Assembly: GCA_903916195.1 (NCBI GenBank) | Contig: CAIWVP010000148.1 | Span: 74,396 to 108,591, forward strand | Reading direction: 5' to 3' | Origin: an uncultured Verrucomicrobiota bacterium | GTDB lineage: Bacteria > Verrucomicrobiota > Verrucomicrobiia > Limisphaerales > UBA9464 | Length of the DNA stretch: 34,196 nt | Part shown: one piece after another, positions 8,016 through 34,076 of the stretch | Numbering within the stretch: the stretch's first letter is position 1 | Layout of the letters: each line of letters opens with the position of its first letter | Position numbers and translations under genes: made by a program | Notes under the pieces: model-generated | Seen by the model: the letters and a program-made list of their open reading frames with translations, nothing else | Told to the model about the DNA's origin: nothing | The model's database searches: none

Positions 8016-8242
8016 GCACCGAGAGTGAGGATCCGGACGAGGCCGGTCAAGCCGGGCGGCCGGAACGGTTGTGACCGGAAGTGGCGGACCGTTTTTGCGG
8101 CGTCGTGCTCTGCTCCTGTTCCGGCGATCCGGATTTCGCAGGGCGCGAGAAGCCCCCTTGGCGCTGGGCAGGAGACGGCGCCTGCGGGTCGCCGACCTGC
8201 GGTGCAGCGGAGCGCCATCCGATCTTGGGAAGCGATGGATCG

Positions 8243-8324
8243 GGAAAGCAGGTAAACAGGAACGGACCCGGCAAAGCCCCGGTTTTCCTGCTTTCCAGAT
8301 CCTCTCTCCGGCCCGTTTTTTTTT
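8243..8324 (+). repeat. Inverted repeat followed by a T-run
   Basis: ggaaagcagg at 8243-8252 pairs perfectly with cctgctttcc at 8287-8296 across a 34-nt loop that has its own GC-rich core. Twenty nt later comes a run of nine T. No plus-strand gene precedes it, so it is not an obvious terminator; it may be a relic or part of an intergenic repeat. Confidence 0.4.
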
Positions 8325-8435
8325 AGAGCAAGAGCGACTCTGACCCGGCTGCCTTGTCCGGCACTTTGGATCGCATCCGGACGGAACCGCGCGGTGCCGC
8401 CTTCGATATCGGCGCGGTTTCACAGGGGTTTTCCC

Positions 8436-26273: not shown

Positions 26274-26328
26274 GGCATCGATAGAAGCAAGGACGGCCGG
26301 GGAAAATCAACCCGCACGCGCTTCGGAG

Positions 26329-26734
26329 GGATCGGAAGTGGCGGACACGACGGCGGATGTGGCTCGGAGTTGTGGTCCGTGCGGCCGAGTTGCCCCCCGG
26401 CGTGGGGGGGATCGCACACCGCCCTCGAAGCCAGGGCATGTCGTGTCCGGGATCGCGCGTCCACGCGGCCCGGCATGGTGTGCGGCCCAGGCGCCCTTAT
26501 GCGGAAGCTCGCCGAGCTCGCCAACCGCCTCCTCAAAGACCCCGCGCTCTCCCTCCAGCAATAAGACAGTTGCTACCAACGTGGGTAGGGTCCGCGCTGC
26601 CGCGCGACCCCATCTGTCCTGCGGGGCCCGCTCAGGCGAATTCCACGGGGCGGAAGCAGCTGCCGACCTCCTCGGGCACGCCCACTGGGATCTTCCCTCA
26701 CACCTCTTCAACTAACCGTCGCTTCCGATCACAC
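26329..26734. repeat. Segment with inverted copies of the dispersed terminal motif
   Basis: ggatcggaagtggcgg (26329-26344) begins it and the reverse-complement-like ccgtcgcttccgatcacac (26716-26734) ends it. The left end continues acacgacggcggatgt, matching acacggcggcggacgt in the 190-bp element at 32582-32771. The right end is degraded (two mismatches in the core). It is a candidate decayed member of the same family, with unrelated filler. Confidence 0.45.
26499..26564 (+). pseudogene. Short open frame, possibly a transposase C-terminal remnant
   Basis: ATG 26499 gives 21 codons, MRKLAELANRLLKDPALSLQ and a final Q, then TAA. The helical, basic 'MRKL..LANRLL' tail recalls, from memory, the C-termini of IS110-like transposases. 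No other transposase motif is visible upstream, so this is a weak guess; the alternative is chance. Confidence 0.25.
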
Positions 26735-26903
26735 CCGCGCTCAGGTCCGCATGACACCGGGACGACAGGCACCCGCGGGACGCCATCCTTGCCGGCGTCG
26801 TTCTTCTCCTGCCGCGCGACACCTCGGGAGCTCAGGCCAGGCACCGGCGTCCTGATCGCGGCTCTCGCCGCGCCAAGACCGGGCAACGGGAGTCTCAAAA
26901 AAA

Positions 26904-29907: not shown

Positions 29908-32529
29908 CTATCCTTCGCGCCGCAAGATCTCCAGCGGGGGCTGGTCGGCGATGCCCCGGCTGGTCGCGAGGCCGACCAGCACGGTCAAGGTCGTCACGCC
30001 GGACAACGCGATCGCCAGCGGGACGGGCAACGCGGCGAAGTCGTGGCCGGCCTTGAAGGCGAACACCGCCAGCGCCCAGCTCGCGATCACCGCCAACCCG
30101 CTGCCGGTGATGGCGGCGAGCAATCCCAGGGTGGCGTACTCGGCGAACAGCACCTGCCGGATCTGCGCGCGGCTGGCGCCGAGCGTGCGGAGCAGGATGG
30201 CCTCCTGCATCCGCTGCCAACGGCCGGAAAGCACCGCGCCCGCGAGCACGACCAAACCCGTCGCGACCGTGAACAACGCCATGAAGCGGATCACGAAGCC
30301 GACCTTGGCGAGGATGCCGTCCAACGTCTGCAGGACGAGCGTGAGATCGATGGCGCTGACGTTCGGGAAGGCCTTCACCACCTCGCGTTGCATCATCGCC
30401 GACGCGGCGGCATCGGCGACGTGGGTGGCGAGCACGTGCATCGCCGGCGCGTCCTCCAGCACGCCGGCCGGGAAGACGACGAAGAAGTTCGGCCGCACCT
30501 GCCGCCAGTCGACCTTCCGCAAGCTCGCCACCCGGCAGGTCATCGGAACGCCCTGCACGTCGAACACGATCTCATCGCCGAGCCCGACCTGGAGGTCCTT
30601 GGCGATGCCCTCCTCGAGAGAGACAGGAACGGCGAGCGGGTCCTCAGCGGATAGATCGGACGGACCGGTTCCCTGGCCTGCTCGCCCATCGGCCTTCCGA
30701 CCTGCTGCCATGGACCGGGGTTGGCCGACCGAGGCGATGAACTCCCCCGCCACGATCTCCTCGCTGTCGACAAGGTTCGTGCGCCAGGTGGACCGGTACT
30801 CGCGGCGCAGCACCCAGTCCGGGACGCGCTTCGTCTTGTCCTGCACGAGCGTCTCGGTGGGCACGCCCTTCACCGATCGCAACCGCATGGTGACGATGGG
30901 CGCCTCGTCGATCACCGGAAGTCCCTGGGACCGGAGCAGCGCGACCACTCCGTCCTTCTGGTCGGGCTGGATGTCGAAGAGCACGGCGTTGGCCTTGGAG
31001 CCGTTGCCGGCCGGGAACAGCTGGGTGAGCAACGTGCCCCGCACGAGATGCAGCGTGAGGATGAGGAAGGTCCCGAGGCCGAGCGAGAGCAGCAGCAGCG
31101 TGGTGCGGTTCTGCGGACGGTGCAGGCTTGCGAGACCTTGCCGCCACACGAAGGGCAGCGACGCGGGGACGAGCCGCCGAGCGAGCCAGACGACGAGCCG
31201 GGCCGCGCCGGCGAGCAGCGCGAAGGCCGTGCCGAGCCCGGCCGCGAAGGCGAGCCCTTCGGTCCACCGTTCCGTCTGCGACATGGAGAAGGCCGTCACG
31301 GCGAGCGCGATCAGCGCGGCCACCGCCCAGCGGGCCGGGTCCGGACGCGGCGGTCCGTCGTAGGCGGCGCGGATGGCGGCGAGCGGGCTCACGCGCCGGA
31401 CCTCCAGGAGCGGCAACAGGGCGAACAGCAGGCAGACCACGAAGCCGGCCGACGACGCCTCGACCGCCGCGCCCCAGGCGAACCGCGGCGCGAAAGCGAA
31501 CGGCACGAAGCCGCCGATCACGGCCGGCAACTTCTGCGCGATCAACGCGCCGAGCGCGATGCCGATCAACGAGCCCGCGGCGCCGAGCGCGATGCCTTGC
31601 GCGAGATAGATCCCGAAGGTGTCCGCGAGCGGCGCGCCGAGACAGCGGAGCACCGCGACATCCGGCAGCTTCTGCCGCACATGGACGTGGATGGCGCTGG
31701 CGATACCGACCGCGCCGAGCAGCAGCGCGACCAATGCCACGAGGTTGAGGAATCGATAGAGGTTGCCGAGCGATGCGCCGAGGTCGCGCTGGCGCTTCTT
31801 CACCGTGTCCGAGTCGAGGCGGCGCGCGGCCAACTGGGGTTCGAGCGGCTTCAGGAGCGCCTCGACGTCGGTCGGATCCGGGAGGCGGAAGTGGACGCGG
31901 TAGCGGGCGAGCGAACCGCCCTTGAGCAGCTCGGTCGCCGCCAGGTCCGACGCCGCGAGATACACGCGCGGCGCGATGGTGGCAAAGGCCACGGTGTCGC
32001 CCGGCACCTTGCGCAGCGCGCCGAGGATGCGGAACGACGCGGCTCCCAGCTTCACGGAGTCGCCCCTTCCGACGCCGAACTGCTGGAGCACGCCCTCCTC
32101 GATCAGCACGCCGCCGCCCGCGCGGAACTCCGCCGCCGCGGACGCCGGTTCCGTCTCGAGCTGGCCGTAGAACGGGAATCCCCCGCTGATGGCACGGGCG
32201 TTGACGAGACGCGTGCCGTTGGTGAGCACGAGCATCGTGGAGAAGCTGGTCTCGCGCGCGGTCTCGCCGCCGAACCGGAGGAAGAGCGCTTCGTCCTCGG
32301 CGGTGAAGGCCTGCCGGGCGGTCAGCACCAGGTCGGCGCCGAGCAGCGACTTCGACTGCTGCCGGATGGCGTCCTCGAGGTTGCGGCCGAGCGATCCGAT
32401 GGCCACGAGCGCGGCGATGCCGAGCGAGATGCTGCTGGAGAAGAGCAGCAGACGGCGACGCGACGCGCGGGAATCCCGCCACGCCATGCGCCACGTCCAG
32501 AGGGAGAACAACGCCCGGATCCACTTCAC
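29908..32529 (-). CDS. Large FtsX-like permease (YbbP-type ABC transporter permease)
   Basis: An 873-residue inner-membrane protein with the two-fold layout of FtsX/YbbP permeases. A first helix at ~25-47 (LLLFSSSISLGIAALVAIGSLG) is followed by a ~200-residue periplasmic domain and a helix cluster (~255-400: NLVALVALLLGAVGIASAI, GIALGAAGSLIGIALGALIAQ, AGFVVCLLFALLPLLEV). A second helix set and periplasmic domain follow, with a final cluster of FtsX-like helices (ALFTVATGLVVLAGAVLSG, LLAAITGSGLAVIASWAL). These permeases pair with a YbbA/LolD-type ATPase; none is in the window, so the partner gene must be distant. GTG 32529 is chosen; 25 extra codons are open upstream but enter the repeat element. 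The role may be lipid or lipoprotein movement, by analogy only. Confidence 0.85.
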   Translation of the reverse strand: MKWIRALFSLWTWRMAWRDSRASRRRLLLFSSSISLGIAALVAIGSLGRNLEDAIRQQSKSLLGADLVLTARQAFTAEDEALFLRFGGETARETSFSTMLVLTNGTRLVNARAISGGFPFYGQLETEPASAAAEFRAGGGVLIEEGVLQQFGVGRGDSVKLGAASFRILGALRKVPGDTVAFATIAPRVYLAASDLAATELLKGGSLARYRVHFRLPDPTDVEALLKPLEPQLAARRLDSDTVKKRQRDLGASLGNLYRFLNLVALVALLLGAVGIASAIHVHVRQKLPDVAVLRCLGAPLADTFGIYLAQGIALGAAGSLIGIALGALIAQKLPAVIGGFVPFAFAPRFAWGAAVEASSAGFVVCLLFALLPLLEVRRVSPLAAIRAAYDGPPRPDPARWAVAALIALAVTAFSMSQTERWTEGLAFAAGLGTAFALLAGAARLVVWLARRLVPASLPFVWRQGLASLHRPQNRTTLLLLSLGLGTFLILTLHLVRGTLLTQLFPAGNGSKANAVLFDIQPDQKDGVVALLRSQGLPVIDEAPIVTMRLRSVKGVPTETLVQDKTKRVPDWVLRREYRSTWRTNLVDSEEIVAGEFIASVGQPRSMAAGRKADGRAGQGTGPSDLSAEDPLAVPVSLEEGIAKDLQVGLGDEIVFDVQGVPMTCRVASLRKVDWRQVRPNFFVVFPAGVLEDAPAMHVLATHVADAAASAMMQREVVKAFPNVSAIDLTLVLQTLDGILAKVGFVIRFMALFTVATGLVVLAGAVLSGRWQRMQEAILLRTLGASRAQIRQVLFAEYATLGLLAAITGSGLAVIASWALAVFAFKAGHDFAALPVPLAIALSGVTTLTVLVGLATSRGIADQPPLEILRREG

Positions 32530-32581
32530 GCGCGCACCGTAGCGGGGAACCGCGCCGACGCCACCCCAGGGGCACCAAAGG

Positions 32582-32771
32582 GTGCGATCGGAAGTGGCGG
32601 GCAATCGTAGCGCAGATTTTCAATCTGCTGTATCGCCGAGTTCCACTCGGCAGGGCAGCGGCAAGGCCGTGCCGCATGCCTGTCGCAGCGCCTGCGGATT
32701 CCAAATCCGCGATACAGCAGAGTGCAACTCTGCGCTACGTCCGCCGCCGTGTCCGCCACTTCTGATCGCAC
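32582..32771. repeat. 190-bp element with terminal inverted repeats and an array of covarying hairpins
   Basis: Ends: gtgcgatcggaagtggcgg (32582-32600) and its complement ccgccacttctgatcgcac (32753-32771), one mismatch in 19. Inside, cgtagcgcag (32606-32615) pairs with ctgcgctacg (32730-32739). Four 17-nt hairpins with 7-bp stems and 3-nt loops follow one design, GCNGANT-NNN-ANTCNGC: 32612-32628 (gcagatt/aatctgc), 32635-32651 (gccgagt/actcggc), 32694-32710 (gcggatt/aatccgc) and 32717-32733 (gcagagt/actctgc). A fifth of a different design lies at 32658-32675 (gcggca/tgccgc). Spacers mirror each other (tgtatc, gataca). The pairing is perfect in all, though the stem sequences differ. Confidence 0.85.
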
Positions 32772-32996
32772 CCGGCACCAGAGGGGCAGCGGTCCCGTCC
32801 GGGAGGCCGCACTGGCCCCTCCAAGTCCGGGTGCATCACGCGATCGCGAGCGGCCCTGGTCGCCGCGATACCGGAACATCGCCTACTGGTCCGTAGGGTT
32901 TGCACCCGGCTTCCACATGCTTGCCTCAAGTCGATCGGGGCACCGCATCGCTTTCTGTGCCGGCTGAATCGGACGAAACCGACCCTGACTCAGGGT

Positions 32997-33025
32997 TTGA
33001 CTCCACTGTATGGCGAGTGGATAAC
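32997..33025 (+). promoter_or_regulatory. Candidate sigma-70-type promoter for the prepilin-like gene
   Basis: TTGACT (32997-33002), 17-nt spacer, then GATAAC (33020-33025), about 28 nt before the ATG at 33054. The hairpin-like words ccctgact/cagggt lie just upstream. Predicted by eye. Confidence 0.5.
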
Positions 33026-33053
33026 TGCGGGTGTTCACTTCACGACACGCCTT

Positions 33054-33884
33054 ATGATGAATCTTTCTAGTATCCGCTCCGCCGGCAAGCGGGGCTTCAC
33101 CCTCATCGAACTCCTCGTCGTCATCGCCATCATCGCGATCCTCGCCGGGATGCTCCTGCCCGCGTTGGGCAAGGCCAAGACCAAGGCCCAAGGCATCCTG
33201 TGCATGAACAACGGCAAGCAGCTCACCCTCGCATGGAAACTGTACAACGGTGACAACGGCGACCGGCTGGTCGCTTCGCTCGCCATCGATAAACGCCCGG
33301 TGTGGGTCGAAGGAAATCTCGGCTTCCCGGGTGGTTCGGACAACACGAACAACAAGTACATCACCAACGGACCGCTCTTCAAATACGCCGGCTCCGCGTT
33401 CGCCATCTACAAGTGCCCCGCGGACCGCGCCGCGATCGGGACCATCGCGAAAAGCAAGTTCACGCCGCGCATCCGCAGCATCTCGATGAGCCAAGCCTTC
33501 GACTTCGGCGGCTGGCTCCCGGGTGGCCCCGGCCCCAAGCAGTACCGTCTCTACGCCAAGGAGAGCGACATCAAGAACCCGTCAGCAACCTTCGTGTTCG
33601 TGGATGAGCACTCCGACAGCATCAACGACGGCGCCTTCGCCGTGCAGATGGTCGAGCGGAGCGCGGCGGCCGGCAACATCATCGACATGCCCGCGTCCTA
33701 TCACAACGGCGCCTGCGGCTTCTCGTTCGCCGACGGCCACTCCGAGATCCACCGCTGGGTCGGCAAGACCATCAAGCCCCCGGTGAAGTACGACGGTTCC
33801 GTGGCTCTGAACGTTCCGGCCAAGGATTCTCTGAACGACGCCAAGTGGCTCTCCGAGAACACCACGGTCCGCAACGACCAATGA
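33054..33884 (+). CDS. Prepilin-like protein with type IV prepilin N-terminal cleavage/methylation motif (H-x9-DG type)
   Basis: A 276-residue protein. After a short basic leader ([14 protein letters not shown]), G14|F15[23 protein letters not shown] is the prepilin-peptidase cleavage site and hydrophobic helix; Glu19, fifth of the mature protein, is the pilin residue. The helix is followed by a globular domain with [22 protein letters not shown] and [19 protein letters not shown], the H-x9-DG motif of the large planctomycete/verrucomicrobial prepilin-like families. Such proteins are very numerous in those phyla and their function is unknown; the signature implies export by a type II secretion/type IV pilus-like route. 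A second ATG lies at 33057. A strong terminator follows 27 nt on. No other pilin genes are close. Confidence 0.9.
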
Positions 33885-34016: not shown

Positions 34017-34033
34017 CCGCCACTTCCGATCAC
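34017..34033 (-). repeat. Solo copy of the dispersed GATCGGAAGTGGCGG motif
   Basis: ccgccacttccgatcac, the complement of gtgatcggaagtggcgg, near the right edge. Upstream, gtacagcagggc and ggacgt echo the gatacagcag and ggacgt words of the 190-bp element, so this is probably a degraded copy in minus orientation. Confidence 0.6.
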
Positions 34034-34076
34034 GCGGGAACGACTCCGTCTCTTGCAGGGAAGCAGCGCCAACTTT

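Follow-up and report, generated by a model that had tools for sequence, protein, structure and literature searches.

The window analysed here is a stretch of 34,196 nucleotides from the genome of an uncultured Verrucomicrobiota bacterium. Between a MacB/FtsX-type permease frame (29908-32604, minus strand) and a prepilin-like gene (32997-33884, plus strand) it carries an element of 194 bp at 32580-32773. It coincides with the 5' end of the permease frame or sits immediately upstream of it (the longest reading of the frame enters the element), and the prepilin-like gene reads away from it. Its terminal inverted repeats are 21 bp long with 1 mismatch and GGG as outermost bases; the left repeat, GGGTGCGATCGGAAGTGGCGG, is found at 32580-32600 on the plus strand and the right one at 32753-32773 on the minus strand, both with 0 mismatches to an N-bearing consensus. 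Over 24 nt, the terminal arms are 92% complementary. The element is flanked by a 9-bp target duplication in which 8/9 bases are identical (ggcaccaaa at 32571-32579 and ggcaccaga at 32774-32782), a length that recurs as 9-bp duplications across the family. A first-pass annotation had bounded the element at 32582-32771 with 19-bp inverted repeats differing at one base; the near-perfect ends and the single mismatch were correctly seen, but the repeats are 21 bp long and the bounds are 32580-32773.

Within this outer shell lies a 132-bp core (32607-32738) with the order GTAGC, hairpin, TGTATC, hairpin, 42 nt, hairpin, GATACA, hairpin, GCTAC. The core reads alike from either end: GTAG, one base, a hairpin with 7-bp stem and 3-nt loop, GTAT-C and a second such hairpin. 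The left half-array is read on the plus strand and comprises the GTAGC tag (32607-32611), assigned from outer tag counts over the 90 halves of 45 arrays, hairpin 1 (32612-32628; 7-bp stem GCAGATT, loop TTC), the spacer TGTATC (32629-32634), which reads as a degenerate inner tag (GTAT-C), and hairpin 2 (32635-32651; stem GCCGAGT, loop TCC). After a middle spacer of 42 nt (32652-32693), the mirror half follows on the minus strand, with hairpin 3 (32694-32710; tag-strand loop TGG), the spacer GATACA (32711-32716), which is the inner tag of the right half, hairpin 4 (32717-32733; tag-strand loop TGC) and the GTAGC tag (32734-32738; GCTAC on the plus strand). The four 17-nt hairpins, their common template and the mirror symmetry proposed earlier are all present. 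The mirror arms of the array span 49 nt and are 82% complementary.

Several reading frames are open across the array (32582-32896), with small ORFs whose peptides include SADFQSAV. Peptides resembling SADFQSAV occur in annotated proteins of related bacteria. Elsewhere in the window, two further, decayed shell elements were found at 26324-26736 (413 bp) and 8067-8378 (312 bp), with inverted ends carrying 3 mismatches each, and a lone shell end with 4 mismatches is present at 34017-34037.

Copy number and pairing of the stems

The 17-nt hairpin template occurs four times in the window, against a mean of 0.05 and a largest count of 1 in shuffles. Compared with chance, the fold of the element as RNA has a z of -12.2 and that of the array alone as DNA a z of -7.6. 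In the 4.39-Mb draft genome, the template was found at 165 places (reversed-pattern control, 3) and the half-array pattern gave 112 matches (reversed control, 3), a high copy number. A search with the whole element, in which 40/179 first-look candidates were scored, yielded at least 92 matches at at least 51 distinct places, as counted by hand from the match list; these are full or partial copies, several of them at contig ends. Tandem arrays with a period of ~238 bp and a conserved spacer between the copies were observed at L035 1412-2010 (contig C155) and L036 646-1252 (contig C67).

To examine the stems, half-arrays were selected by tag and spacer alone (at most 2 mismatches in 11 bases), leaving the stems out of the choice. 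The loci of this genome had been retrieved because they resemble the element or its ends; among the 101 half-arrays in them, the outer stem is perfect in 68 and the inner stem in 71. The congener G008 has six half-arrays, with two perfect outer and five perfect inner stems, and the 58 matches in other records, which are mostly chance matches, include 9 and 6, respectively. A genome-wide pattern search that left the stems open is less affected by this choice: in the outer hairpin, the five free pairs are Watson-Crick throughout in 23/26 matches of G006 and in 22 of the first 23 matches listed for G007 (of 43).

Full-array candidates, also chosen by tags and spacers, number 57: in 45, 25-28 of the 28 stem pairs are formed, and in the other 12, 5-20. 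Two of these 12, at L057 and L097, are true arrays read out of register. In the alignment of the 45 arrays, 97.9% of the 1260 stem cells are paired, a value inflated by the selection of rows with at least 25/28 pairs; when the partner column is slid by one to three positions, pairing falls to 27-38%. Changes on both sides were seen at 12/28 stem pairs (0/500 shuffles as high) and further pair types also exceed most shuffles (3/500 as high), counts which do not represent independent events since the copies are related by descent. In the 18 arrays of G006 and G007, outer stems occur in four versions (GCAGATT, GCAGGTT, GCAGAAT and GCAGAGT) and inner stems in nine; 63/72 hairpins are perfect, and 488/504 stem cells are Watson-Crick, 7 wobble or A-C and 9 other. 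Half-arrays chosen regardless of their stems are mostly perfectly paired, and together with the pairs changed on both sides this bears out the earlier proposal that the stems are kept by paired changes. That proposal would have fallen with a lack of other copies or with uncompensated stems; copies are many and their stems are paired. The inverted pair is likewise conserved as a unit, as in REPINs, in the 45 full arrays and in the 18 of G006/G007.

A long cruciform formed by the whole array was considered as a further conserved fold and rejected. With its two 45-nt arms set as partners, 79.8% of cells are paired. Three of the pairs fail almost throughout (44, 44 and 43 of 45 rows), and both the double-changed pairs (155/500 shuffles as high) and the further pair types (192/500) stay within the shuffles. 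Common ancestry of the two halves would be expected to raise the proportion of paired cells, the count of double-changed cells and the covariation score, and all three lie above 500/500 shuffles. Between the halves of an array, the inner stem differs at position 3 in 43 and at position 6 in 44 of the 45 arrays, which makes the halves heterodimers. We suggest, and only suggest, that a heterodimer design avoids long cruciforms, a point that is discussed for other repeats in PMC3733652.

Tags, loops and strand

The outer tag is GTAGC in 70/90 and GTGGC in 10/90 halves of the 45 arrays, and the inner tag is mostly TGTATC or CGTATC. According to the definition given in PMC6006769, GTAG-type REPs carry GTAG or GTGG 0-2 nt 5' of a fully paired stem of 7-20 nt with a loop of 2-5 nt. 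The outer hairpins of the window follow this rule (GTAG, 1 nt, 7-bp stem, 3-nt loop); the inner hairpins do not follow it strictly, as their tags are of the GTAT type.

Contrary to the first impression that the loops vary freely, their first base is constrained. Read from the GTAG side, the loops of the window all begin with T (TTC, TCC, TGG and TGC). Over the 180 hairpins of the 45 arrays, the GTAG strand has T as first loop base 144 times, G 30 times, C 6 times and A never. In the 18 arrays of G006 and G007, T comes first in 72/72 hairpins. The rule is mirrored in the other half: loops with T first and without A last number 131, and the converse 0. A G-first subfamily comprises seven arrays in which 28/28 loops begin with G; such arrays, with GGC or GGT loops, were located at L037 1116-1248, L045 852-984, L057 319-451, L178-L180 and L215. 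No RAYT flanking this subfamily was identified in this genome or in G008. In both subfamilies, the pair closing the loop is mostly T-A. On the tag strand, G-T and A-C cells number 9 versus 17 in the 45 arrays, 4 versus 3 in the 18 arrays and, as summed by hand, 34 versus 27 in the 101 half-arrays. The loop rule is thus strand-specific from each GTAG tag and G-U is not clearly in excess over A-C, which favours folded single-stranded DNA over RNA as what would be recognised. The proposal that folding is kept, either as RNA or as single-stranded DNA, accordingly holds for the folding, and its two options can be narrowed towards DNA.

The outer shell

The outer shell is a second, separate element. 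Two shell end sequences, GGGTGCGATCNGAAGTGGCGG and GGGCGCATCTTTTCACCGTGG, were distinguished. The end of shell 1 (19 inner bases, at most 2 mismatches) occurs 84 + 86 times in this genome, compared to 0 + 1 for a reversed control, 19 + 14 times in G008 and at most 2 times in each of the six other congeners. For 51 loosely bounded shell elements, the identity of the flanking 9-mers is 0.416 (shuffled 0.303, maximum 0.379). For 48 elements from G000 and G008, defined by at most 4 mismatches per end and 89-533 bp in length, it rises to 0.512, against a shuffled mean of 0.297 and a maximum of 0.377 in 1000. When the ends were allowed to shift, 19/48 elements match at 8-9 of 9 positions (shuffled mean 0.44, maximum 4); 29/48 are without a clear duplication. 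The duplication of shell 1 is 9 bp long; the signal is weaker at 8 and 10 bp and absent at 5-7 and 11-12 bp. The interiors of shell 1 are diverse and include the array, the G-first array, a single hairpin in an element of 89 bp and array-free types of ~280, 376 and 529 bp.

Bacterial MITEs are short, have matching ends and a fixed-length target duplication, and occur in many copies. The shell resembles them in these four features and differs by carrying a REP array. It has terminal inverted repeats, is multicopy and, with interiors read by eye, is too short for a transposase gene. IS256-type (Transposase_mut) genes number 0 in the genome, and within 6 mismatches no shell end was found in the stretches surrounding its six DDE_Tnp_1 genes. 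Among the DDE_Tnp_1 and IS256-type genes of this draft genome, no autonomous relative with shell 1 ends was thus found, and the shell is therefore called MITE-like and is not given an IS family.

Two sets of candidates for an autonomous partner were rejected. One comprised 20 stretches, most of them at contig ends; by hand count, 16 match the ~280-bp interior, L210 is of the 376-bp type, L214 and L215 are arrays, and L211 has a shell end with an unassigned interior. The other comprised inverted pairs of shell ends 1.3 and 2.6 kb apart, in which no transposase was seen; they enclose biotin-synthase-like and glycolate-oxidase-like frames, named by eye. At L049 1403-2731 (contig C5), inverted shell ends 1329 bp apart surround a biotin-synthase-like frame, which might represent two elements or a captured gene.

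Shell and array together and apart

Of 21 copies listed, ten have both junctions between shell and array in the same place within a few bases, as judged by eye, and in five of these ten (L001, L002, L004, L005 and L007) the duplication matches at 8-9 of 9 positions. The shared junctions and the duplications indicate that shell and array have moved together. Both also occur apart. G006 and G007 have 26 and 43 half-array matches and only 1 and 0 weak matches to the end of shell 1. Some of their arrays are enclosed by the second shell, with the end GGGCGCATCTTTTCACCGTGG, which (at most 3 mismatches) has 23 occurrences in G006 and 32 in G007; the six remaining genomes of the genus, among them this one, have 0. 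Eleven elements with this shell show a 9-bp duplication (0.626 versus 0.312; maximum of 1000 shuffles, 0.515). In G007, the second shell surrounds a complete four-hairpin array at L233 and L252 and a three-hairpin version at L253, and at L239 an array lies between weaker ends of this type (6 and 2 mismatches); the remaining elements with this shell enclose no array. On this distribution, shell and array are separable elements, and the array is nested in two different shells. What had been described as one element is therefore two, a REP array nested in a shell with terminal inverted repeats (TIRs) and a 9-bp target duplication. The broader description as a structured repeat, mobile or regulatory, holds in that the repeat is multicopy, its stems change in pairs and its anatomy, with TIRs and a target duplication, is that of mobile DNA.

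RAYT genes and their linkage to arrays

Four Y1_Tnp genes are present in this genome. The protein at L034 (265 aa) matches Pfam Y1_Tnp with 25.1 bits (cut-off 23), has TnpA-REP 4er8 as its only PDB match at E <= 0.01 (E 2.6e-6) and reaches 78.7 bits with NCBIfam REP_Tyr_transpos (NF047646), just below the cut-off of 80. A second protein, at L033, scores 80.3 bits with NF047646 (cut-off 80). The L034 protein contains NHVH and GYTVRNP, assigned by eye as the HxH and catalytic tyrosine motifs. Three four-hairpin arrays flank its gene, two of them on the same side; within 5 mismatches, no shell 1 end was found at these arrays. The best named relative of L034, with 67% identity, is the RAYT at L097 of a Verrucomicrobia metagenome-assembled genome, which has a four-hairpin array on either side with 28/28 pairs each. 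In G017, a relative in the same family, the RAYT (62% identity) has four hairpins on either side with other stems; on the tag strand, G comes first in the loops of hairpins one to three, and the loop of the fourth is 4 nt long. The best named RAYT relatives point to Verrucomicrobiota as the likely phylum of this genome. A RAYT flanked by the repeat, as for GTAG-type REPs, was thus found at L034/L038, L097 and L070.

The linkage was also seen across 80 RAYT loci from many phyla. Perfect hairpins with 7-bp stem and 3-nt loop number 192 in 90,959 bp near the gene compared to 99 in 233,589 bp far from it, and are found near the gene in 65/80 loci. Tagged hairpin-strands amount to 132/424 near and 32/198 far, and occur near the gene in 53/80 loci. 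Tandem hairpin pairs with spacers of 3-13 nt, mostly 7 nt, lie near the gene in 20/80 loci and far from it in 7, which indicates that doubled hairpins are a recurrent design. Among 50 genomes, a RAYT match at E <= 1e-20 was found in 5/5 of those with at least 10 half-array matches and in 14/45 of the remainder (Fisher p 0.005, kinship ignored). In the 3 kb surrounding the RAYT match of G007, perfect hairpins with 7-bp stem and 3-nt loop are absent, and on either side of the G006 match lie single hairpins of another type. The RAYT gene of G008, at L071, is flanked by hairpins of a third type, which have GTAGGG tags and perfectly paired GGGGACT-GTC-AGTCCCC stems. No enzyme was thus found for the many arrays of these genomes.

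Discussion

The first-pass annotation knew of no described function for such repeats, yet their kind is already in the literature, as GTAG-tagged REPs with RAYTs. By the features tested, except for the inner tags, the core is a GTAG-type REP/REPIN. It resembles the GTAG-tagged REPs and REPtrons treated by Di Nocera et al. (2013; PMC3733652) in its GTAG/GTGG tag, short stem with short loop, inverted dimers, heterodimer stems, flanked RAYT and alternative complementary stem letters. It differs from the REPs as portrayed there in having two hairpins per half and a degenerate inner tag. The same work names repeats of O. terrae and the PVC superphylum, and in our search of open-licence literature it was the one relevant paper found on REP/RAYT or palindromic repeats in Verrucomicrobia. 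It also describes REP dimers inside long palindromes, GTAG-15 in A. variabilis and CGTC-1 in H. neapolitanus (PMC3733652). In its account these palindromes were not found without REPs, whereas here the surrounding TIR element also occurs array-free; and where that account treats them they are not named as TIR elements, whereas here TIRs and 9-bp target duplications are present. With REPINs (Bertels and Rainey, 2011; PMC3116915), as characterised there, the arrays share two inverted REPs plus spacer as spreading unit, compensated changes, tandem clusters with flanking DNA and a RAYT nearby; unlike REPINs, they have four hairpins rather than two and a MITE-like shell around them.

Biochemical work on Group 3 TnpA-REP and the perfect-palindrome REPs of S. 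maltophilia (Sm) and Marinomonas (Mb) reported that a perfect stem is needed, that stem letters are minor and that loop bases are decisive, namely the first, G, in Sm and a T adjoining a T-A pair in Mb (Corneloup et al., 2021; PMC8266576). The GTAG tag guides cutting by TnpA-REP (PMC8266576). The arrays in this study are similar, being T-first or G-first with mostly a T-A closing pair, here as read from sequence alone, and differ from the Sm and Mb REPs as described in having a stem of 7 bp rather than 8 or 5 (PMC8266576).

Taken together, the core is very probably a REP/REPIN-type array, a likely RAYT substrate, nested in an independent MITE-like shell. RAYT (TnpA-REP) is an HUH/Y1 single-strand DNA transposase related to IS200/IS605. 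Once a strand is exposed, it may recognise the GTAG tag, the perfectly paired short stem and the first loop base, and then cut and copy or move the array. Stem letters would matter little provided they pair, and we propose that they change in pairs because pairing, not the letters, matters to recognition. The inner hairpins, with GTAT for GTAG, may bind RAYT and perhaps stay uncut, since in one system binding survived a single change at the third or fourth letter of the tag while cutting was lost (PMC8266576). The shell would have been inserted with its 9-bp target duplication, presumably by a DDE transposase that moves whatever lies between its ends, so that the array may be cargo and a passive rider. 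Counting against this reading are the RAYT matches of G006-G008, which are not flanked by such arrays, the RAYT matches in 14/45 array-poor genomes, the failure to find shell ends at the DDE_Tnp_1 genes or any IS256-type gene, and the 29/48 shell elements that lack a clear duplication.

Other explanations were weighed against this one. If the array were an RNA element, it would be transcribed and its hairpins would act as terminator, mRNA stabiliser or regulator of a neighbouring gene. The very stable RNA fold and the location between the permease frame on the minus strand and the prepilin-like gene on the plus strand would suit such a role, and G-T pairs in REPs were read as a hint of RNA function in PMC3733652. 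However, at gathering score the window has 0 matches to Rfam families, G-T wobble is not clearly above A-C on the tag strand, and as the loop rule is mirror-imaged between the halves, one transcript would carry both forms. We regard an RNA element as improbable. A single transposable element, in which shell and array form one unit served by one enzyme and the hairpins are its own sub-terminal sites, is a slimmer chance still. The constant junctions in 10/21 listed copies, five of them with an 8-9/9 duplication, are what such a unit would give; against it, arrays without shell 1 lie around the RAYT gene and in G006/G007, shell 1 encloses other interiors (~280, 376 and 529 bp, and the single hairpin in 89 bp), and arrays in G007 lie in another shell. 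In addition, IS200/IS605-type enzymes leave no larger target duplication (PMC2817692).

The stems might also be perfect for a purely mutational reason, because template switching in quasi-palindromes makes one arm the complement of the other and needs no recognition of structure. Half-changed stems are indeed few in the 18 arrays of G006/G007, but such a mechanism explains neither why the loop base follows the strand nor why stem positions are nearly fixed, and it leaves the tags and the RAYT linkage unaccounted for. As a full account, template switching is the least probable of the three; it can, however, operate as an additional process.

By title, no description of REP arrays inside MITEs was found in open-licence literature. 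Relative to that literature only, two features are new: hairpins doubled into a fixed unit, and nesting of the array in two different shells with target duplications. A wider proposal, plausible though somewhat short of probable, is that REP arrays are a recurrent cargo of DDE-type MITEs and are spread by two unrelated transposition chemistries, single-strand HUH and double-strand DDE, which together would explain the dimers inside the palindromes of A. variabilis and H. neapolitanus. If true, four-hairpin arrays would have entered different TIR shells in two lineages of the same genus. The arrays provide a natural experiment on how a RAYT may read DNA, with tags and first loop base nearly fixed, stem letters free as long as they pair, and two subfamilies differing in the loop base. 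By their nesting in TIR elements, the shells of which differ between the two lineages, REP arrays might potentially spread without an enzyme of their own.
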